DNA from: a virus
Direction: 5' to 3' (one strand)
DNA: 34,348 nucleotides
IMG/VR virus record: IMGVR_UViG_3300020470_000093
Location: 1-34,348 of that record
Part shown: positions 3,201 to 33,768 of the stretch, piece after piece
Numbering within the stretch: position 1 is the first letter of the stretch
How the letters are laid out: every line of letters starts with the position of its first letter
Notes under the pieces: generated by a model
The model's database searches: none
Told to the model about the DNA's origin: nothing
The model's input: only the letters and a program-made list of their open reading frames with translations
Program-made: the position numbers and the translations under genes

Positions 3201-3854
3201 TCACCGCTGAGGCGGAAGTAGTAGAGCTTTTGTGGGGCACCAGCCTTTATTGACGCGATTACAAACTGTGTCGTAATTTCTTTCAAACTTAGCAGCTAAC
3301 TGCTTTATAGTCCCACTCTCACCAGCTACCAAGAAAACTTTTCCGAAACCTCTTGGCCTGGAAAAGGCCACTTCAGGTGAATGCCCCAAAACAGTCAGCC
3401 GCTTTCTCAACGCCCCAACACTCACTCCAGTTTCTTTCGACCACTCCTTTAGGGTCATAGTCTTACCGAAGGCGGTAAATTTGTGCGAGGCAGAATAGGC
3501 TGCACGTTTCCTGACCTCGGGGTCTTGAGGAATGACTCGGTTGCTTCCATCAACCGAGTCACAGATATTCATTCCTCCCTCACTAACTAATGAACCCCTC
3601 TCATGAATCCAGAAGAGTTCCGCAGTGTCTAGATTTTGAATCTCAGTCTCCTCTAATATGGAAAATTTGAATTTAGTCTCCCCATATTTCTTCCATGACC
3701 GTTGAAGAATCAAATTATGATGCTTACCGTGCTTCAGTTGCGATCTATGATTTCTCCATCTACGATGTACATTAACCGACTGGCCGACATACTCTCGACC
3801 AGTCGGTAGACATTTGATACTATAGACTCCTACAATATCAGAACTCATCTTCAT
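3201..3854 (-). CDS. GIY-YIG homing endonuclease
   Basis: The 217-residue protein opens with a GIY-YIG nuclease domain: GVYSI at residues 9-13 and EYVGQS about 10 residues later, followed by HRRWRNHR, which supplies the catalytic arginine region, and the glutamate of AELFWIHE. The C-terminal half (about 110-217) looks like the DNA-binding part of Seg/I-TevI-like enzymes, with a helix-turn-helix-like stretch (TLKEWSKETGVSVGALRKRL) and a second similar one (GTIKQLAAKFERNYDTVCNR). Such genes are selfish elements that cut an intronless or unoccupied allele and spread by repair. The gene overlaps the preceding phosphoesterase gene by 17 bases and sits directly before J. Its sequence looks richer in A+T than its neighbours, consistent with recent insertion. 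No intron boundaries are visible, so it appears free-standing. Confidence 0.85.
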   Translation of the reverse strand: MKMSSDIVGVYSIKCLPTGREYVGQSVNVHRRWRNHRSQLKHGKHHNLILQRSWKKYGETKFKFSILEETEIQNLDTAELFWIHERGSLVSEGGMNICDSVDGSNRVIPQDPEVRKRAAYSASHKFTAFGKTMTLKEWSKETGVSVGALRKRLTVLGHSPEVAFSRPRGFGKVFLVAGESGTIKQLAAKFERNYDTVCNRVNKGWCPTKALLLPPQR

Positions 3855-4899
3855 TTCTCATGTAATGCTTACCATGGATCAGGGTAAAGTCGCCAATGAA
3901 GTGATAATCCATGTGGGGGATTTGTTCTTGGGTATCAACAGTGACCGTCATAAACCCCATGTCCCATTTTTCGCCTGCGCAGTACTCAGCACTACGACGG
4001 TGACCACAACCAAGCTGGTGCCATTCGTAGCTGCCGAAGATATGGCTATACTGCGAGTGAACGAGGTGCTGGTGGTGGTGCCCATTGACGCCGGGGACTC
4101 CTTTGTTGCGACCATCGGGGAAGTGATCCACGAGGAAACAGTTGTGGAAGACCTCGTAGTTCTTGCCGATTTCCTTGACAACGTTCGACTTGTTGAACGT
4201 ACCAAGATCAGCCCGAGCAACGTAACGAACTTCGTACTTGTCGAGGCCCAGCAGCTTGGGAACAGTCCAGCCGTGAAGGTCGCTCAGCACAACCTTGAGA
4301 GCAGGAGCGTTGTCGGTCAGATACCGCAGCAGTCGGTGTTCGTGATTACCTTCGATGAAGACAATCTCGGTATCGGGAGCCGCTTCTCGGATATCTCCGA
4401 GGAAGGTATGCACCCACTGAATCTTGCTCACAATATCCCATTCGCGGGGATCGACGCTGTAACGACCAAATTCAGCAAGATCAAACACGTCGCCACCAAG
4501 AATGACAGTGTCAGGCTGAATGCGAACAACGGTATCAATAAAGATACGACGCCAGAACGGGTCGCACTCTTCGTCGTGGATGTCGGACGCGACCAGCATT
4601 GTTTGGAATCTAGTTCCCTTAGGCTTACGAAACTTGTCAATGTAATCTGCCTTCTCGATGTTCATCTGACGATAGACGTCTGCATCAGTGTGTCGCCCAA
4701 GGGCCAAGCGGTCCTTACGGCCACCTGCTAGTTCCTCAAGCCCTGCGGCTCGACGGAAGGCACGGAAAGTACCAAAACCACTTTTGATTGCGTGATCGCT
4801 AAAGCTCCCGAGATTCCGATACTGGGTACGAGTCGGCATATCTCTATCAACCTCAGAAGCTACTCGCTTGAGGTCTTCAATCATATCTATTTTATTCAT
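3838..4899 (-). CDS. Calcineurin-like metallophosphoesterase with N-terminal homing-endonuclease-type repeat
   Basis: The 353-residue protein has all the metal-binding motifs of the calcineurin-like phosphoesterase family: SDIHD (D106, H108), GGDVFD (D137), GNHEH (N185, H186) and GHHHQH (273-278). These coordinate two metal ions for phosphoester hydrolysis; the substrate is unknown. Residues 7-55 resemble the short DNA-binding repeat that accompanies HNH homing endonucleases (DLKRVASE, PTRTQYRNLG, then FGTFRAFRRAAGL). The gene lies in the tail operon between I and J, starting in an ATGA overlap with the I gene, so it is translationally coupled to tail assembly genes. It could be a DNA repair-type nuclease, a virion-associated enzyme or a cargo gene. 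Family confidence is high; the role is not known. Confidence 0.85.
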   Translation of the reverse strand: MNKIDMIEDLKRVASEVDRDMPTRTQYRNLGSFSDHAIKSGFGTFRAFRRAAGLEELAGGRKDRLALGRHTDADVYRQMNIEKADYIDKFRKPKGTRFQTMLVASDIHDEECDPFWRRIFIDTVVRIQPDTVILGGDVFDLAEFGRYSVDPREWDIVSKIQWVHTFLGDIREAAPDTEIVFIEGNHEHRLLRYLTDNAPALKVVLSDLHGWTVPKLLGLDKYEVRYVARADLGTFNKSNVVKEIGKNYEVFHNCFLVDHFPDGRNKGVPGVNGHHHQHLVHSQYSHIFGSYEWHQLGCGHRRSAEYCAGEKWDMGFMTVTVDTQEQIPHMDYHFIGDFTLIHGKHYMRNEDEF

Positions 4900-12780: not shown

Positions 12781-13032
12781 ATGAACCAAGAAAAACCGAA
12801 ACAGCAGGTTAAGACCCTGAGCATTCGGATTCCTGAGGACCTCTACCTAGCCGTGTCGCAATATGCGTTGGACCGGGAACTGCCGTCGATTAACGCCGCA
12901 GTTACTTCCCTGCTCAACAATGGACTACGAGTTACTGGAGACAAGGAGTCCGCTATTAGCGAGTTTATTCTCGAACTCATCCCCGAACAACGGCTAAAGG
13001 AGTTGGCCAGTGGCACAATCAAAACGTCCTGA
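12781..13032 (+). CDS. Ribbon-helix-helix-like DNA-binding protein
   Basis: The 83-residue protein has the Arc/CopG-type pattern: a beta strand (KTLSIRIPEDLYLAVSQYA) followed by two helices (LPSINAAVTSLLNNGL). RHH proteins bind DNA as dimers and usually act as repressors. It opens the plus-strand cassette inside the minus-strand structural block, divergent from the major tail gene across 75 bases. Its 3' end overlaps the tail chaperone gene by 23 bases. It may regulate the divergent promoters next to it; the C-terminal 30 residues (about 50-83) are not recognised. The ATG at 12781 is preceded by GAAGGGAAGC, a plausible binding site for the ribosome. Confidence 0.65.
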   Translation: MNQEKPKQQVKTLSIRIPEDLYLAVSQYALDRELPSINAAVTSLLNNGLRVTGDKESAISEFILELIPEQRLKELASGTIKTS

Positions 13033-13444
13033 GAAGACGCTTAAACTCGAAGACGGTACTGAACTCAAGATGTCATACCTTATGCTTAACGATATTCTAC
13101 GTTACGTGGGTACTCCGGAGGAGGCTCTGCCTCGAATCCTCGCGGACCAAGACACCCGAGACCTGATCGTTCGCCGTCTTCTGACGGATAACGACAAGCC
13201 AATTGAGGACCTGAAAGACCTCATCCCTGTGGGTGACTTGGAAATCGACTTCTTCGATGTTGAGGATATCTTGGCGTGGACTATGGAACACGTCACGTAT
13301 TTTTTTATGAAAACCGCCGAGAAGATGAAGGCGGCGGTCGCAAAGTATCCGGACATGGAGAAGATGATGAAGTCCTTCGACCCTTCCGAGAGTGGTTCGA
13401 ATCCCTCTCCGACGACGACCAAATCTGCTGGGCCTACGGAATAA
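13010..13444 (+). CDS. G: Tail assembly chaperone, short form (gpG-like)
   Basis: The 144-residue acidic and helical protein starts at GTG 13010, with AAGGAG seven bases upstream. It occupies the role of lambda gpG: a protein that coats the tape measure before tube polymerisation. The identification rests on a second frame that overlaps its end and carries its own long conserved-looking sequence, reached by a -1 slip at T TTT TTT (13300-13306). The last 45 residues after the slip point (MKAAVAKYPDMEKMMKSF, then SER/PRO/THR-rich) are present only in the short form. It lies on the opposite strand from the tape measure gene it should serve, and outside the usual position between tube and tape measure genes. 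Confidence 0.68.
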   Translation: MAQSKRPEKTLKLEDGTELKMSYLMLNDILRYVGTPEEALPRILADQDTRDLIVRRLLTDNDKPIEDLKDLIPVGDLEIDFFDVEDILAWTMEHVTYFFMKTAEKMKAAVAKYPDMEKMMKSFDPSESGSNPSPTTTKSAGPTE

Positions 13445-13680
13445 ATCCCAGTCAGTATCAAGAACTAGCCCGCAATGAGGTATGGTACGATGTGACATAC
13501 AAATTGCGGGTTCGTCTTGGTGAGGCTACTGTAGGACATTTACAGCAGCATTACTCTATGGTAAAGATTCTCTCAGCAGCATTTGGTGGAGACTCTAAGT
13601 CTAATGCCGTCAAGGTCAATGACATGAGGTCCACCGAGGATGCGGTCACAAGTTTGAACCAATTTTTCGGTGCGCAATGA
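13010..13680 (+). CDS. GT: Tail assembly chaperone, frameshifted form (gpGT-like)
   Basis: Translation from 13010 to 13306, a -1 slip, then frame 13306-13680 gives a protein of about 223 residues. The part after the slip has no start codon with a convincing ribosome site. Its distal half (PFREWFESLSDDDQICWAYG, then YDVTYKLRVRLGEATVGHLQ) is clearly protein-like while the zero frame ends at 13444. In lambda the ratio of G to GT is critical and GT's T domain recruits the tube protein. The stop TGA at 13678-13680 overlaps the next ATG. Confidence 0.65.
13300..13338 (+). promoter_or_regulatory. Programmed -1 frameshift signal
   Basis: The heptamer T TTT TTT (13300-13306) is in the correct zero frame for simultaneous slippage. 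Six bases later a stem begins: ACCGCC (13313-13318) pairs with GGCGGT (13333-13338) across a 14-base loop. The spacing and the overlap of the two frames match known -1 sites in phage tail chaperones. Confidence 0.65.
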
Positions 13681-14219
13681 GAGCAACAAGACAGAAATTT
13701 GATATCCAGTTCGACGTTATTGATAAGGGCAGCGGCAAGTTTTGCGGCGCTCTTGAAGACATCGATCTTTCCGAGGGGTCAACCATTGATTGGGTGGCCC
13801 CTCGGCGCATTTTGAAGGTTGACGTCAACCTTCCTCTCAAGGGTGGCATGGTTATCCAAAGCCCCCAAGGTATGAAGTACATGGTCGCGTGGTTCTCACC
13901 AAGTGAGACTTCTATGGGCGATCCGTTCCGTGCTTTCAAGCTCTACCAAGCCACTACGGTGGCCAGTCTTCGTCGTCGTAGTTCGTCAGGAACTGACGCT
14001 CGCACCGGTCTTCCTAAGGAAGGTGCGTTGGGTGATCCTGTCGAGATTTACGCCAGCTACGAACCACTACAGGAAGCGTTCGACCGAGAGCTTCGCATCC
14101 CTAACGAGAAGGGTAGGCTGATTACCAACGAGCCTCTGTTTCGCAATGACGTAATCAATGGCGAGACCGTCATTGAAGTTCATGAATTCCAGGGTCTCTG
14201 GGGTGCAGTCCTAGCTTAA
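13677..14219 (+). CDS. Probable virion neck/head-closure protein
   Basis: The 180-residue protein starts in an ATGA overlap with the GT stop. It is beta-rich, with GGMVIQSPQGMKYMVAWFSP around residues 56-75, which resembles the beta-barrel of head-closure (stopper) proteins. No motif settles the matter. It ends at 14219, overlapping the convergent minus-strand gene by 9 bases. Codons 48-51 (VDVN) coincide with a perfect copy of the hairpin repeat found near the right end of the window. It might instead be a second tail chaperone-associated protein, given the cassette. Confidence 0.4.
   Translation: MRATRQKFDIQFDVIDKGSGKFCGALEDIDLSEGSTIDWVAPRRILKVDVNLPLKGGMVIQSPQGMKYMVAWFSPSETSMGDPFRAFKLYQATTVASLRRRSSSGTDARTGLPKEGALGDPVEIYASYEPLQEAFDRELRIPNEKGRLITNEPLFRNDVINGETVIEVHEFQGLWGAVLA
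13814..13833 (+). repeat. GGTTG-CAACC inverted repeat, copy inside a coding sequence
   Basis: This is the longest perfect copy of the family: 10-base arms GAAGGTTGAC / GTCAACCTTC. As RNA it gives an 8-bp stem with an ACGU loop. It is read in frame as VDVN in the 13677-14219 gene. Confidence 0.85.
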
Positions 14220-20821: not shown

Positions 20822-23567
20822 ACTTGTTTACGTCCTTATTTCTAAACCTGTCAGTCGGGTCATTGTTCTTGCCCATATCCAGCCCAAGAATAGACAGCGT
20901 CATAGCAGTATCGTTCAAATTATGCAAAAAGATATGCTCTGCTACTCGTCGGGCTAGCAAGGCAAAAGCCATGCTGTGAAAGAAGTGGTCATTGCCGTTC
21001 AACTTGACCCACTTCGGCTCTTTCTCGGGAGTTTCTTCCCGAACCATATCCCGCAAGTGTGCCATCAAAGTGTCTTTATGTGAAGTGTAACCACCAATAA
21101 CCGCCGCATCATTCACAATACTTGTGCGCACCATGTCGAGTGCGAAAGTACGATTAGCGGCGTAGTAGATCATGTTGCCTGCTTCGTCTCGCTTGGGTGC
21201 GAGGATGGCCTTGCCTTCATAGGCAATCGGCATCATGGTCCCCATCGTGTTCTCACGGATGGCGTCCACCTCCGGAGTGTAGGGGTATCGGTCAGCGCAC
21301 ATCTGAACGATGTTGTACCTCTTGCGCAGTTCCGCGATAGTGGCATGAAGTTGCGAAGCGTGACAGGTCTTGAACAGGAACCAAGGGTCCTTACCGTCGG
21401 TGTGTTCCCCGACAATCGTCAGGTGACAGATAGCGCCCATATCGATGCCCAAGAATGCGGCAGCACTGGTTTCGATTTCTCTACCGTGTGAGGCCAAGCA
21501 TCCTTTGATGGACTCTTCTGGAATCTGGGCCGAAGCCGGGCTGTAGGGTTCGCCCAGCACGGTATTGTGGAAGCCCTTCTCGTTCTCGTTCAGCTTGTAC
21601 TTGGCAAGCTGCTTGAAAATATATTCCAGCGAGATACGGTCGGTCGAGAACGGGTTGACCTTATAGCCACGGAAGTTGTCCTTGCTTGGGTGCTTAGCGA
21701 CCCACTCGCGCAACTCGGGGTTGTGCAGGTCGAGTCGCGAGCCACACTTGCAGCACTTGACGTATGCTTCCTTTAGATTCAGGCCAGTGATTTGTTCCGG
21801 CGTCATATCCACGAGCTTGTCTACCTCGAAGTTGAGGTCGGGCAGGTGGACCCACTCGTGTTCAAACAAGGGGAACTGGTGGTGGTTGCACGATTCACAG
21901 CGGACAAGGTAGTGGAACTGGTCAGTCAGGGCGAAGTTCTTATCGACGCCGAAGCCCATATAGGTCGGGGTAGAGAACGCTTGAGTGATCTTGTAGTCCG
22001 AGTTCTGCAGACGCGACTGGAACAGACCGATCATGGCCTCGTCGGACAGGTCGAGTTCGTCGTGGAAAAGAATATCGGCAGGAATCGAGGTAGCGGGACC
22101 TTCGTTACAGCCCGTGATGTACCCCCAGCTATCTCCGATCTGAATGAGGTCCTGACGACGGACAGGCTTATCGACCATCGGTGGGTTGAACACGTCGTCG
22201 TTCTTGAGAATCGGCGAGATACGGGTGGTATAGACACGCTTATACATGTCCTCGGTCGGCAGGGTGAAAATCCCCGAGACACCGTTCATGCGTCGAAGAA
22301 ACGCGAGGAACTTACGGACCTGAACCTCGGTATTGTGGGTAGGAATCATACCCTCGCCACAAAGGAACAGGTGATTAGGTGAATCGACGGTAATGCATTG
22401 GGTTGGAACAGAATCAACCTCGGCAACTCGAACAATCGTCCTGTTACGAGTGAATCTCTTTCGTTCCTCAGCCACTCCTTGTCTCTCAGCCTTTCTCTCA
22501 AGATTGAACAGCTGAATGTCGTGAGCCATTACCGAGACCTCAGCAATCGGAAGCTTTCCCCCGAATCCAGAGCCATTCGGCTTTCTCCAGCGGATTCTAG
22601 GCTTCATACCGAGACTACGCATTAGCTCAACAACTGCACGAACAAGTTCAGGCTCTGTATTATGAAAGGAGGCCCTGCCTTTTTTAGTGATGCTCCCGTC
22701 CGAGTCCATCAGGCCTCGAAGAAGTTCCAAGCGTTGGTAGGGGGAAGCTCTGAGATATGAGTTCGGGACAACCTTTTTCCCAATATGACCTTGTTCTCGC
22801 AGAGAGCGATAAAGTTCAGGAACTCTATACTGGATTTCGCTAGAGAAAACTAGGTCGTATCCTCTGTCCGAAAAAAGTTGACGCATTTCGGACAGATCTT
22901 GGTCACCAACTGTGATGGTGGCCGAGTGGCGACATCCATCTCCCAGCCAGACTCCGAGAACATACGGATCAATAGGCAACGGGGTATCCGCCCCGGCGAG
23001 GGCCTTGGTGTTTGGAACGTAAAACTTCGCTTTCTCAAAGTTTTCAAACAAGAACTTTGTGTCAACAACCCCTTCATGTGAGTAGCCGTCAGTCTTCGGA
23101 GGTCTCCCCTTGCCTCGGAACACCCCAGCAGAATTGAATGGGCCTCTGTGAGTTTTTACATTCCAGCGATGGCTTGAGTCTGCCACCACGACCTCTCCAT
23201 CATCGAATTCAATCTCAAAGCAGTCTCGGCCATACCAGATTTCAGACTTGAAAGTGACCTTCGTAAGCTTTCCCTGTTCATCGAAAAGAGTATCGCCCAC
23301 TTGAACCTCGCCCATAGTAGTCCAGCCATCTATCGTCGGAATGGGAGTGTCCAGTGACAGCGCAAGCCCAATCTGAGAACACTTGATCACCGACATGTTT
23401 GGGTGCATGTCGTTGGCAATCCGCTCTTGGAATGGGTAGCGGCTAAAGTCGAACGGCTTACGGCTAAGAGTCGTGTGTTCCTTCAACCAGTCGCCAATAG
23501 GGACTTCGTCGCCTGCTGCGAGAAACTTCGTGCTGGCCTGTTTATGTAGCTCGGAAAACAGTTTCAT
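20805..23567 (-). CDS. Terminase large subunit (GpA type) interrupted by an intein
   Basis: The ATG at 23567 (MKLFSELHKQ) is chosen because residues encoded further upstream look random and overlap the divergent promoter. The 920-residue precursor contains an ATPase with a deviant P-loop (KCSQIG-L then T-EVQ), as in lambda gpA where the lysine comes early. A Walker B-like ADILFHDE and coupling motif FSTPT follow. A Cys4 zinc site is present (CESC and CCKC). The nuclease domain has GIDMG, MCADRY and DHFFHSMAFALLA. A 344-residue intein splits the P-loop. Removal yields about 576 residues, normal for GpA-type enzymes. It translocates DNA into the prohead and cuts the concatemer. Confidence 0.93.
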   Translation of the reverse strand: MKLFSELHKQASTKFLAAGDEVPIGDWLKEHTTLSRKPFDFSRYPFQERIANDMHPNMSVIKCSQIGLALSLDTPIPTIDGWTTMGEVQVGDTLFDEQGKLTKVTFKSEIWYGRDCFEIEFDDGEVVVADSSHRWNVKTHRGPFNSAGVFRGKGRPPKTDGYSHEGVVDTKFLFENFEKAKFYVPNTKALAGADTPLPIDPYVLGVWLGDGCRHSATITVGDQDLSEMRQLFSDRGYDLVFSSEIQYRVPELYRSLREQGHIGKKVVPNSYLRASPYQRLELLRGLMDSDGSITKKGRASFHNTEPELVRAVVELMRSLGMKPRIRWRKPNGSGFGGKLPIAEVSVMAHDIQLFNLERKAERQGVAEERKRFTRNRTIVRVAEVDSVPTQCITVDSPNHLFLCGEGMIPTHNTEVQVRKFLAFLRRMNGVSGIFTLPTEDMYKRVYTTRISPILKNDDVFNPPMVDKPVRRQDLIQIGDSWGYITGCNEGPATSIPADILFHDELDLSDEAMIGLFQSRLQNSDYKITQAFSTPTYMGFGVDKNFALTDQFHYLVRCESCNHHQFPLFEHEWVHLPDLNFEVDKLVDMTPEQITGLNLKEAYVKCCKCGSRLDLHNPELREWVAKHPSKDNFRGYKVNPFSTDRISLEYIFKQLAKYKLNENEKGFHNTVLGEPYSPASAQIPEESIKGCLASHGREIETSAAAFLGIDMGAICHLTIVGEHTDGKDPWFLFKTCHASQLHATIAELRKRYNIVQMCADRYPYTPEVDAIRENTMGTMMPIAYEGKAILAPKRDEAGNMIYYAANRTFALDMVRTSIVNDAAVIGGYTSHKDTLMAHLRDMVREETPEKEPKWVKLNGNDHFFHSMAFALLARRVAEHIFLHNLNDTAMTLSILGLDMGKNNDPTDRFRNKDVNKYGFGR
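22332..23363 (-). other. Class 3 intein with LAGLIDADG endonuclease in the terminase P-loop
   Basis: The intein runs from Ala1 (ALSLDTPIPT) to Asn344 (PTHN), with Thr as the first residue of the C-extein. Ala1 cannot act as the first nucleophile. Instead the three marks of class 3 inteins are present: Trp67 in SSHRW of block B, Cys323 in TQCITV of block F and Thr342 before the final His-Asn. In this class the block F cysteine attacks first. A homing endonuclease lies between blocks B and F, with LAGLIDADG helices LGVWLGDG (about 137-144) and LLRGLMDSDG (about 214-223). The insertion point lies exactly inside the ATP-binding loop, so the terminase is inactive until splicing. Confidence 0.9.
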
Positions 23568-30944: not shown

Positions 30945-31097
30945 GCCAGAAGTGTGGGTGGCGAGATTGAGCTATTTTTTATACAAGTTGTAAACTTATT
31001 ATATTTTTTTCATTTTTCGAGAGATCCTAAAAATATATAATAGAATATAACATTGTTCATAAAAGTCGCTAGTTTCCTGAACGAGGATGGGATTCTC

Positions 31098-31197: not shown

Positions 31198-31262
31198 TGA
31201 GAGCCAGGTCCCGCACCTACCTTGATTGAGGAATCCGGTATTGAGGTTGGGCCTGGCTCTCA
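31198..31262 (+). ncRNA. Long stem-loop
   Basis: An 11-bp perfect stem (31198-31208 with 31252-31262, TGAGAGCCAGG/CCTGGCTCTCA) closes a 43-base internal region with weaker pairs (TCC/GGG, ACC/GGT) and the direct repeat ATTGAGG. It may be a small RNA or a processing site. Its start shares TATGAGAGCCAG with 32307-32318. Confidence 0.45.
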
Positions 31263-31584: not shown

Positions 31585-31600
31585 GGGTTGTCGTCAACCC
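31585..31600 (+). repeat. GGTTG-CAACC hairpin repeat, 18 bases before a start codon
   Basis: Six-bp stem GGGTTG/CAACCC with loop TCGT; the centre is not palindromic. The 3' end is 18 bases before ATG 31619 and 7 bases before its GGAG. Confidence 0.8.
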
Positions 31601-31618
31601 GCAAGATTGGAGCTAGAC

Positions 31619-32239
31619 ATGGCTAAGTTTGACAAAGACGCATTTCTCCTCGCATCGGCCAAGGTTGGCGCACATGGCAGGGCAATCGACAAGCTGCACA
31701 ATAAAGCAAGTGCAGACAAGGCGGCATGGGCTACGCAAGCCGCTGCCGGTATCCAAGAAGGGCAGTTGACTATGGATGAAGTCAAGCGCCAGTTGATTGT
31801 CGATACGTTCATGGCCCTGCCTAAGTCGCAGCAGGAGGATATCTTTGATCCCGATAGCGTTTCCAACTTCAAGGAATTTGTTGGCCAAACCGTCAACGGA
31901 TGGTTCCACGATCTTCGCCGCTGCGTTGAAGCTGGCCCCGCCTTTATCAAGCGGGTTGCGGATGGCGAAGCTGTCACTACTGTTCGCCGCGAAACTAATG
32001 CAACACAAGGCAAGGGTGCTAAGGGCAAGGGAGCGCCTAAGGCGAAGCAAGCCAAGCCGCTGCCGACTATGGCGGAAGCTACCGCTGCCTTGCGGGGATA
32101 TGTGCAAGCTGCCACGGCGGATACGGCCAAGGCAATGGCGCTCGCCAATAACGCCGAATTGGCAGGCCTGATTGCCGATATCGGCAAGCTTCAGGCCAAG
32201 GTGGAAGCCGAAACGGCCAAGCTGGCCAAGGTGGCTTAA
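31619..32239 (+). CDS. Lysine/alanine-rich protein of unknown function
   Basis: ATG 31619 with GGAG seven bases upstream gives 206 residues. Residues 1-125 are helical and ordered (AKFDKDAFLLASAKVGAHGR, then FVGQTVNGWFHDLRRCVEAG). A basic hinge follows (GKGAKGKGAPKAKQAKP). The last 60 residues are an alanine-rich helix likely to form a coiled coil. The basic hinge suggests nucleic acid contact. It is the first gene of the right-end block and the first to carry the hairpin repeat in its leader. No family is recognised. Confidence 0.72.
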   Translation: MAKFDKDAFLLASAKVGAHGRAIDKLHNKASADKAAWATQAAAGIQEGQLTMDEVKRQLIVDTFMALPKSQQEDIFDPDSVSNFKEFVGQTVNGWFHDLRRCVEAGPAFIKRVADGEAVTTVRRETNATQGKGAKGKGAPKAKQAKPLPTMAEATAALRGYVQAATADTAKAMALANNAELAGLIADIGKLQAKVEAETAKLAKVA

Positions 32240-32251
32240 TTCCAACGGGAT

Positions 32252-32273
32252 GCGGGGTTGATGTCAACCCCGC
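32252..32273 (+). repeat. GGTTG-CAACC hairpin repeat, after a stop codon
   Basis: Nine-bp stem with arms GCGGGGTTG and CAACCCCGC and loop ATGT. It begins 12 bases after the stop at 32239. The outer GC pairs differ from other copies but still pair. Confidence 0.85.
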
Positions 32274-32275
32274 CT

Positions 32276-32312
32276 CTCATAAGAAGGCTTGCTAGGCGAG
32301 CCTTCCTATGAG
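32276..32312 (+). other. Long imperfect hairpin
   Basis: CTCATA, GAAGGCT and GC pair in order with GC, AGCCTTC and TATGAG across two single mismatches and a TAG loop. It follows the hairpin repeat at 32252 after 2 bases. No T-run follows, so RNA processing or stability is more likely than termination. Confidence 0.6.
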
Positions 32313-32355
32313 AGCCAGAGTCAAAATCTGAGCGTGTCTCTGGACCTGGTTCTGG
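32307..32355 (+). repeat. Intergenic direct-repeat segment
   Basis: TATGAGAGCCAG (32307-32318) also occurs at 31196-31207. CTGGTTCTGG followed by (A/G)GGCG (32346-32360) recurs at 32597-32610. These non-coding spacers therefore share modules. Confidence 0.55.
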
Positions 32356-32386
32356 AGGCGAGGGCGGCTGCCCGAAGCAAATTCGG

Positions 32387-32400
32387 GGTTGACGTCAACC
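32387..32400 (+). repeat. GGTTG-CAACC hairpin repeat, 18 bases before a start codon
   Basis: Exact GGTTGACGTCAACC; two G-T pairs can extend the stem. The 3' end is 18 bases before ATG 32419 and 4 bases before AGGAG. Confidence 0.85.
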
Positions 32401-32418
32401 TTTTAGGAGATCGAAGCA

Positions 32419-32574
32419 ATGATTTATGTCCATTTCGAAACGGCGGGTCGCGTCTATGTCTATGGTCCGTTTGATACGGAAACCCAAGCTAAAGCGGCGG
32501 CGGATAAGGTAGGTTTGGGGGATCATGTGAGGATCGTCGAAACCTATATGTGTCACGCGAGCGAACTGGCTTAG
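32419..32574 (+). CDS. Small hypothetical protein
   Basis: A 51-residue frame (MIYVHFETAGRVYVYGPFDT..., ending CHASELA) starts at ATG 32419 with AGGAG ten bases upstream. The pattern of short strands (IYVHF, VYVYGPF), a helix (ETQAKAAADKVG) and a strand (HVRIVETY) looks like a compact alpha/beta fold. It is flanked by the hairpin repeat upstream and an intergenic repeat plus a terminator downstream. Family unknown. Confidence 0.7.
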   Translation: MIYVHFETAGRVYVYGPFDTETQAKAAADKVGLGDHVRIVETYMCHASELA

Positions 32575-32625
32575 GGACCGGTTGCTGAGTTTGGCTCTGG
32601 TTCTGGGGCGCGGCCTAAGGTGGAT

Positions 32626-32648
32626 ATTCCCAATAGTTGGGAATTTTT
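32626..32648 (+). terminator. Intrinsic terminator
   Basis: ATTCCCAA (32626-32633) pairs with TTGGGAAT (32637-32644) over a TAG loop and is followed by TTTT. It ends transcription of the 51-residue gene. The next gene then needs its own promoter; TATACA (32673-32678) is a possible -10 with no clear -35. Confidence 0.75.
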
Positions 32649-32679
32649 CCCGATGTTTGGCCATGTCCGATTTATACAA

Positions 32680-32698
32680 AAGGTTGACGGTCAACCTT
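32680..32698 (+). repeat. GGTTG-CAACC hairpin repeat, 24 bases before a start codon
   Basis: Arms AAGGTTGAC and GTCAACCTT flank one extra G, so as RNA the loop is ACGGT and the DNA symmetry is odd. The AA/TT extension pairs. ATG 32723 follows after 24 bases. Confidence 0.85.
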
Positions 32699-32722
32699 AA
32701 ATTACAAAGCGAGGTAATTAAG

Positions 32723-32926
32723 ATGCGCGGGATTGTTAGCTTCTTGTTCTACGGTTTCACCCTTCTGACGGTTCTGGGTTTCATTCTGGCTCTGCTCAAT
32801 GCGGACGTGAATGGCAACTTCGTAGACGGTGATCTGACTACCGCATCTGTCCTGTTTTCCCTGTGTGGCATCTTTGGCGCATTCGGATGCTTCCTGATCG
32901 CCGAAGGTGAGAAAATGGAAGGTTGA
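32723..32926 (+). CDS. Small two-span membrane protein
   Basis: The 67-residue protein starts at ATG 32723 with GAGG ten bases upstream. It has two hydrophobic helices: residues 5-25 (FLFYGFTLLTVLGFILALL) and 40-62 (ASVLFSLCGIFGAFGCFLIA). The short loop between them is acidic (NADVNGNFVDGD). The stop codon TGA (32924-32926) lies inside the next hairpin repeat. Holin-like by shape but far from the endolysin gene; it may instead act on the host membrane early in infection. Confidence 0.7.
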   Translation: MRGIVSFLFYGFTLLTVLGFILALLNADVNGNFVDGDLTTASVLFSLCGIFGAFGCFLIAEGEKMEG

Positions 32927-32934
32927 CGTCAACC
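32921..32934 (+). repeat. GGTTG-CAACC hairpin repeat containing a stop codon
   Basis: Exact GGTTGACGTCAACC. Its TGA is the stop of the membrane protein gene. The 3' end is 22 bases before ATG 32957 and 12 bases before AAGGAG. Confidence 0.85.
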
Positions 32935-32956
32935 CTCAAAACCAAGGAGAACTGCA

Positions 32957-33157
32957 ATGTGTGCAATTCCACAACCCGCCGAAGATTGGCCCTGCCAAGC
33001 GATGTATCACGAGGACGACGAAAGCGGCATCATGAGCCTGATGTTCGAGCGGCCTCTGACACACGCCGAGCGCCTGGAGGTGCGTGAAGGCATCATGGGC
33101 AACTCCCATTGGGCCGACGAGCAAACCCTCATCATCGTGAGTCTGGAGACCGACTGA
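32957..33157 (+). CDS. Small hypothetical acidic protein
   Basis: The 66-residue protein (MCAIPQPAEDWPCQAMYHED...) starts at ATG 32957 with AAGGAG seven bases upstream. It has two cysteines near the N-terminus, a helical middle (RPLTHAERLEVREGIM) and a final strand (QTLIIVSLE). Its TGA overlaps the ATG of the next gene (TGATG), so the two are coupled. Function unknown. Confidence 0.7.
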   Translation: MCAIPQPAEDWPCQAMYHEDDESGIMSLMFERPLTHAERLEVREGIMGNSHWADEQTLIIVSLETD

Positions 33158-33768
33158 TGGAATACGCAACACACCAAGATAGCGACAACCGCTGGTGGCC
33201 TGTGGTCAATGGCAACGTGGTAAAACCTCCGCTCAGCGATGGGTTCGTCTATGAGAAGTTCGCGCTCAATCTGGCCAAGACGTATGCCGAGCTTGGTATC
33301 GACAAGGCCGCTACGGTCGAGAAGTTCAAGTTCCCTGAGGGGACACCGATGGTGCGGACGATGCCTGATCCGCAAAAGCCGAGGACCGGCTTCGAGATTG
33401 TCGCCGAGGGCGACAATCCGGCGATGCCTCGTGTCACCGAGTTCGCATTGGTTGACGTCAACCCCTCGGCTATCGACTACGACATGCCTGCCGAGTTCGA
33501 CATGTCCACCAGCAAGGGGACCACGCCCCTGATCTGCTGCACGATGTTGCAGCCTCAGACCGAAGCCGATGTCGTGCCTATCGAAAAGGTCCGGCTGATG
33601 AATGCCCGTGCCTCGGTCAAACCGGACAGGGTTGACGTCAACCTTTCCCCTTACGACGAGGGGATGAACGCAGCAATCAACGGCAAGGGCATCAAGTCCT
33701 GCCCCTACCCCAAGGCCGACGCCTCCAATCACAACGAATGGATGGACGGTTTCTTCTTCGACGAGTGA
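33157..33768 (+). CDS. Protein with C-terminal RMF-like domain
   Basis: The 203-residue protein starts in a TGATG overlap with the previous gene. Residues 1-155 are not recognised. The C-terminus (about 165-203) has YDEGMNAAINGKGIKSCPYP followed by a W and G-F-F, the same order of residues as ribosome modulation factor (Y..G..A...G....CPY......W..G). RMF binds 30S/70S ribosomes and forms inactive dimers. The domain could target ribosomes, but RMF-like sequences in phages also include small proteins with other roles. Two copies of the hairpin repeat lie in the gene, both read as VDVN (residues 99-102 and 159-162). Confidence 0.65.
   Translation: MEYATHQDSDNRWWPVVNGNVVKPPLSDGFVYEKFALNLAKTYAELGIDKAATVEKFKFPEGTPMVRTMPDPQKPRTGFEIVAEGDNPAMPRVTEFALVDVNPSAIDYDMPAEFDMSTSKGTTPLICCTMLQPQTEADVVPIEKVRLMNARASVKPDRVDVNLSPYDEGMNAAINGKGIKSCPYPKADASNHNEWMDGFFFDE
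33450..33463 (+). repeat. GGTTG-CAACC repeat inside the RMF-like gene, first copy
   Basis: Exact GGTTGACGTCAACC, in frame as VDVN. Flanks add no further pairs. Confidence 0.85.
33630..33643 (+). repeat. GGTTG-CAACC repeat inside the RMF-like gene, second copy
   Basis: Exact GGTTGACGTCAACC, in frame as VDVN just before the RMF-like domain. G-T and A-T flanks lengthen the stem by two pairs. Confidence 0.85.

Follow-up and report, generated by a model that had tools for sequence, protein, structure and literature searches.

Phage-specific dyads in the early regions of a siphophage family: candidate duplex DNA sites for an early protein

We analysed a 34-kb fragment of an uncultured virus (IMG/VR record IMGVR_UViG_3300020470_000093, positions 1 to 34,348; hereafter the window), in which a short dyad, GGTTG-N4/5-CAACC, recurs among small genes near the right end. 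Structural genes, mostly on the minus strand, are followed by a plus-strand primase gene, three tRNAs (30.1-30.5 kb), a non-coding leader and, from 31.6 kb, small plus-strand genes. The primase shares 38% identity with its counterpart in Caulobacter phage Seuss, and there are matches as well in Achromobacter phages JWF and 2-1 and Xylophilus phage Lumi; all four are isolates with complete genomes, of 81-85 kb. Long direct terminal repeats are annotated in Seuss and in Acinetobacter phage EAb13, and they are reported for Lumi (PMC9959647). Comparison of gene order with Seuss suggests that the small plus-strand genes of the window correspond to the early region beside the terminal repeat. A close relative, contig G001, shares parts of the same leader and is 94% identical to the window in the primase and about 89-91% identical in the portal, major head protein and terminase.

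All seven dyads originally predicted between 31.58 and 33.65 kb are present, at coordinates that moved by 0-4 bases, and there is an eighth at 13817 (Table 1). The 12-mer GTTGACGTCAAC, held to be far above chance, does occur five times in the window against 0.003 expected. Are the dyads set in front of genes, as was claimed? Four of them are, and of their distances to the start codon 18 and 22 nt stand while the other two become 19 and 26 nt (previously 18 and 24), but those at 33450 and 33630 fall within gene 33157-33768. Uniform placement of the four start-proximal dyads within their gaps gives a product of 3e-4, and in the three long intergenic gaps (148-575 nt) their position is not forced by gene packing. 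The outer bases, said to vary but stay paired, are paired at 31586, 32256, 32682 and 13817, and at 32387 only as G-U; they are unpaired at 33450 and 33630, apart from one G-U at 33630. An Rfam search returned the tRNAs only, with no model matching at the dyads, and a consensus scan for intrinsic terminators (a GC-rich stem plus a T-run) gave no sense-strand prediction at any window dyad.

Table 1. Dyads and associated features of the window
Feature	Position	Strand	Remarks
AT-rich promoter-like stretch	30974..31059	+	upstream of early genes; conserved; two copies in G001
Dyad GGTTGTCGTCAACC	31586..31599	+	19 nt 5' of ATG 31619, first early gene
First early gene, 206-aa protein	31619..32239	+	candidate dyad binder; homologs solely in same-dyad phages
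Dyad GGTTGATGTCAACC	32256..32269	+	outer arms GCGG/CCGC paired; 16 nt 3' of first early gene
Dyad GGTTGACGTCAACC	32387..32400	+	18 nt 5' of ATG 32419
Small early gene, 51 aa	32419..32574	+	dyad in front
15-bp dyad GGTTGACGGTCAACC	32682..32696	+	26 nt 5' of ATG 32723
Small early gene, 67 aa	32723..32926	+	dyad in front
Dyad GGTTGACGTCAACC	32921..32934	+	22 nt 5' of ATG 32957; overlaps 3' end of gene 32723..32926
Small early gene, 66 aa	32957..33157	+	G001 ortholog 71% identical, without window-type dyad in front
Dyad GGTTGACGTCAACC	33450..33463	+	within gene 33157-33768, read as VDVN
Dyad GGTTGACGTCAACC	33630..33643	+	within gene 33157-33768, encoding VDVN; same residues and dyad there in a G004 homolog
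Dyad, exact copy	13817..13830	+	within gene 13677-14219, read as VDVN; eighth copy, missed by the original prediction

The window palindrome is repeated in three further phage contigs, G004 (75 kb), G003 (46 kb) and G010 (57 kb), as a 14-mer with an ACGT centre and as a 15-mer with one additional central G or C. All 23 true 14-mers of these relatives have the ACGT centre (12/12 in G010, 3/3 in G003 and 8/8 in G004, where matches at 70163 and 35589 were taken as chance and are outside the count). Inside genes the dyad dictates the amino acids: in the window, G004 and G010, VDVN is encoded by GTTGACGTCAAC in 15 of 15 cases. At 13817 this VDVN replaces the VPVD of an 83%-identical ortholog with no change in length.

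Two observations concern the genes that hold these copies and their surroundings. The product of gene 33157-33768 has a C-terminus weakly like ribosome modulation factor, below the Pfam cut-off. In the stretch 12781-14219, 13010-13444 (related to Seuss gp020) and the overlapping frame 13276-13680 probably form a tail assembly chaperone pair, which is on the opposite strand from the tape measure gene; the same inversion is found in G001 and G004 but not in Seuss.

That the palindrome came from bacteria or from the host was considered and rejected. The 20 exact 18-mer matches in bacterial genomes consist of a contig of this phage family (L048) and single-copy matches, 13 of the latter representing one conserved Chlorobiaceae stretch. 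L048 (JAGVDA010000266.1), the G004 phage contig, has been placed in a Thermosynechococcus metagenome-assembled genome, likely through a binning error or else as a clue to the host community. Lone matches in viral contigs L009 and L012-L017 were treated as chance (L013 encodes a distant primase relative).

Do other members of the family have a dyad of this kind? An unbiased scan of all 5-base arms at spacings of 0-11, with no preset motif and with shuffled controls, gave a phage-specific dyad as its top result in JWF, 2-1, Lumi, Seuss, the window, G003, G004 and G010, and nothing comparable in the shuffled controls. The dyad is GTTCGT-N-ACGAAC in both JWF and 2-1, TTACT-N5-AGTAA in Lumi and TTACC-N3-GGTAA in Seuss; in EAb13 the same scan found no enriched dyad. 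Eight of the ten JWF copies lie 13-25 nt 5' of annotated starts, which none of 20,000 random placements reached; in Lumi 7/17 copies are within 30 nt of an annotated start (p about 1e-4) and in 2-1 3/9 are near one (p about 0.03), these nulls overstating the effect in tightly packed regions because random positions inside genes were allowed. At orthologous sites JWF and 2-1 agree at 60/60 dyad positions versus 410/671 flank positions, a comparison of little weight because it is partly circular, the sites having been chosen by their arms.

G001, searched with a 2-base centre plus GTCAACC, has no GGTTG-CAACC dyad of the window type. At matching places (5' of its first early gene, just 3' of that gene, and within a gene) it carries the dyad ATCGCATATTATGCGAT, whose copy 3' of the first early gene is embedded in an extended inverted repeat. 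In an exact search the G001 19-mer turned up nowhere but in G001 itself and the closely related G002.

The first early gene of the window has dyads on both sides, and its 206-aa product has homologs in G004 (38% identical) and G010 (about 31%), both same-dyad phages. The cores of G004 and G010 are more distant from the window than that of G001, yet they share its dyad and a homologous early protein; indeed the homolog of this protein is the sole G004 protein found in the window and G010 yet missing from G001. JWF and 2-1, which have an identical dyad, have first early proteins that are 74% identical. The window protein shows no detectable homology to the first early proteins of G001, Lumi or Seuss, and single-sequence searches of viral contigs with the 206-aa and 203-aa early proteins returned no close relatives. 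These comparisons suggest that dyad type and first early protein change together in the cases compared.

Is the conserved element a DNA site or an RNA hairpin? The original prediction preferred an RNA hairpin to a dyad DNA operator, and named beforehand a contrary result in two parts, retention of the exact palindrome by related phages and mutants with protein binding to duplex DNA but no effect of RNA structure; as to the first part, the relatives do keep the exact 14-mer and its ACGT centre. The sister phages, with their other dyads, point the same way. Spacing is fixed, at 5 nt in 21/21 Lumi copies (with 13 different centres), at 3 nt in 9/9 copies in 2-1, and at 3 nt in 12 JWF copies (one further match each at 2, 6 and 7). 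Inner positions that could not pair in RNA are nevertheless symmetric in JWF (12/12), 2-1 (9/9) and G010 (24/24). At the conserved spacing there are four single-arm mismatches in Lumi and three in JWF and no compensated pair changes in either; one compensated change was found in G004. Predicted Lumi hairpins have stabilities of only -0.4 to -1.9 kcal/mol, so that a stable hairpin is not general to all the dyad phages. Because of the fixed spacing, the symmetry of unpairable centres, the uncompensated arm changes, the weak Lumi hairpins and the intragenic copies, we favour recognition as duplex DNA.

The rival explanation that best survives this evidence is that a GGUUG hairpin with a short loop, closed by CAACC, acts in early-gene leaders, where an RNA-binding protein would control translation or mRNA stability. 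Dyads do lie 13-28 nt 5' of many ATG codons, and the hairpins predicted in the window group are stable (-4.4 to -16.8 kcal/mol). The broken central symmetry that was cited for it is real but is a minority feature, the TCGT and ATGT centres occurring in two window copies. Extended paired arms are found at post-stop copies, and only there do outer arms vary yet stay paired (window 32256; G010 17030, 20481 and 22533); each of these G010 dyads (L064 17030; L065 481 and 2533) lies in the middle of a longer inverted repeat, the outer arms being unrelated, and has no T-run immediately 3'. At such places RNA structure may be relevant too, with both functions served at once. As a general account of the dyads, however, an RNA hairpin is unlikely given the exact centres, the symmetry and the uncompensated arms described above, the free centres and negligible stability at fixed spacing in Lumi, and the copies inside genes. 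What survives of the original prediction is its broader claim, that small early genes share a control element which recurs near their starts and is probably recognised by a phage factor.

We consider it probable, with some reserve, that the dyads are dispersed, stoperator-like duplex DNA sites for an autoregulated, phage-specific early protein that shuts off the early genes by blocking elongation. In this scheme the half-sites GGTTGAC/GTCAACC would be bound as duplex DNA by a phage-encoded dimeric protein, for which the product of the first early gene (31619-32239) is the proposed candidate. The sites would lie within early transcripts, mostly just 5' of the ribosome binding site but also after the first gene and inside genes, and not at promoters. 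As the early protein accumulated it would occupy the dyads and block transcription elongation through the early operon, its own gene included, and early expression would be shut down. In the window, at least about 540 nt separate the early-region dyads from the conserved promoter-like stretch upstream of them, and a consensus scan predicted no sigma-70-like promoter past 31.3 kb. A roadblock to elongation is the simplest action to propose because the dyads are far from this stretch and no nearby promoter or sense terminator is predicted. Searches of five records, which may be fragments, turned up neither a tyrosine integrase nor a serine recombinase, and for this reason we favour early shut-off in a lytic cycle over immunity.

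Several points weigh against this interpretation. The first early protein of the window has no recognisable DNA-binding domain (Pfam and PHROGs gave nothing); the model of its structure is of low confidence (mean pLDDT 53), showing only helices, a long one among them at the C-terminus, and a fold search with that model gave no meaningful match to solved folds. Because there is no known domain, no fold match and only a poor model, dyad binding by this protein is argued from association. Co-switching of dyad and early protein depends on few independent events, and a different cognate protein could be encoded in early sequence beyond the 34-kb window. The G001 case is the weaker because there are just three full ATCGCATATTATGCGAT copies, and these were not the top result of the unbiased scan. 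The centres of GGTTG-CAACC (A-type) dyads measure 4 and 5 bp (6 once), looser than a rigid dimer site. Finally, the association with starts exceeds what a pure roadblock needs, and it is uneven, with smaller fractions of copies near annotated starts in 2-1 (3/9) and Lumi (7/17) than in JWF (8/10).

Other explanations fare less well than an RNA hairpin. The near-constant distance from dyad to start in JWF and the window would fit a dyad acting as promoter or activator, transcription beginning shortly after it and giving each early gene a short leader. This is improbable: in JWF and Lumi no conserved sequence or promoter stands at a fixed distance around the dyad, copies occur inside genes and after stop codons, and no phage RNA polymerase is noted in the annotated relatives, no search having been aimed at one.

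An equally doubtful explanation is a small mobile palindromic element that spreads by copying and has no regulatory role, in the manner of the Rickettsia palindromic elements, which are short palindromic repeats found in frame within genes. In-frame intragenic copies occur here as well, and an identical palindrome is present across phages with diverged cores. Moreover, three G004 copies (L025 2328, 2924 and 3768; two intragenic, one intergenic) have a longer common unit, CCAACCGAAAAAGGTTGACGTCAACCT, which suggests recent duplication. However, most copies have differing flanks, the dyads are associated with starts, and corresponding places carry different dyads in different phages. The Rickettsia elements are also larger, mobile and inserting, whereas the dyad unit is 13-18 bp and the copy at 13817 is not an insertion, since it replaces other residues and leaves the length unchanged. 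That the dyads serve genome partition, packaging or replication rather than gene control is the least probable, for although G004 and the isolates have many copies of one perfect dyad close to their genome ends, an arrangement comparable to the many-site distributed centromeres of phage-plasmids, dyads lie just 5' of early starts and around the first early gene.

Some further features of the window were recorded. A second conserved hairpin (GAGAGCCAGG...CCTGGCTCTC, 31199-31262) lies 3' of the early promoter-like stretch, and in G001 a similar hairpin is found behind each of the two copies of that stretch. In the stretch 22331-23365 the terminase large subunit has an insert with a LAGLIDADG-like domain; the insert is absent from G001 and G002 and is probably an intein. 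The open reading frame 3201-3854 resembles a GIY-YIG endonuclease by eye, without a search, and an HNH-associated repeat is present at the N-terminus of the adjoining phosphoesterase (3838-4899).

That no described element has the window sequence agrees with our survey of open-access papers, which found none; one may have been described earlier elsewhere. Repeats of this kind go unmentioned in the Seuss genome announcement (PMC4591317), and none came up in a term search of the paper on Lumi (PMC9959647). Our results point to a family-wide control of early genes that the surveyed papers do not describe, spanning Caulobacter, Achromobacter and Xylophilus phages and those of environmental hosts. 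With a candidate regulator named and a target predicted in each of several phages, binding specificity and the co-evolution of a protein with its many sites become directly testable.

How do the dyads compare with known systems? The conserved inverted repeats of the temperate Streptomyces phage phiC31 are many symmetric early-region sites for one repressor, which controls its own gene. The dyads are likewise many copies of a symmetric site lying mostly in the early region; the phiC31 repressor has no known kinship to the window early protein, their sequences not having been compared.

The stoperators of cluster A mycobacteriophages (L5, Bxb1 and relatives) are 20-30 short sites for one protein, spread across the genome mostly away from promoters; site sequence and protein differ jointly by phage type, a conserved site precedes the protein's own gene, and the bound protein acts as a roadblock to elongation (PMC6550527). 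The dyads are similar in being many, short and dispersed, mostly not associated with promoters (as judged by consensus scan only), in differing in sequence by phage type, and in standing in front of the candidate protein's own gene. Stoperators, however, are asymmetric 13-14 bp sites of temperate phages, oriented with transcription and bound by a monomeric repressor (PMC6550527), whereas the dyads are perfectly or near-perfectly symmetric and concentrated in the early region of phages in which no integrase was found.

The SAS repeats of cluster K lie just 5' of the starts of non-structural genes and consist of an asymmetric 13-mer, GGGATAGGAGCCC, that contains the Shine-Dalgarno sequence; extended SAS are 17-bp imperfect inverted repeats with spacers mostly of 4-13 bp and a subcluster-specific consensus, and their function is proposed but unproven (PMC12699233). 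Like these, the dyads are type-specific inverted repeats upstream of early starts. Unlike extended SAS they are 13-15 bp long with arms of 5-9 bp and fixed spacing, and GGGATAGGAGCCC is not enriched in the window (one 2-mismatch match versus 0.62 expected by chance). We therefore assign the early-gene dyads neither to the stoperators nor to SAS. Tentatively, they may belong to a new class of sequence-specific regulator in siphophages of 80 kb that seem to be lytic, a class that could in addition keep out co-infecting phages of like type. In it a small, probably all-helical early protein with no recognisable DNA-binding domain would switch off the early genes from some 10-20 scattered dyads, protein and site changing specificity together between close relatives.

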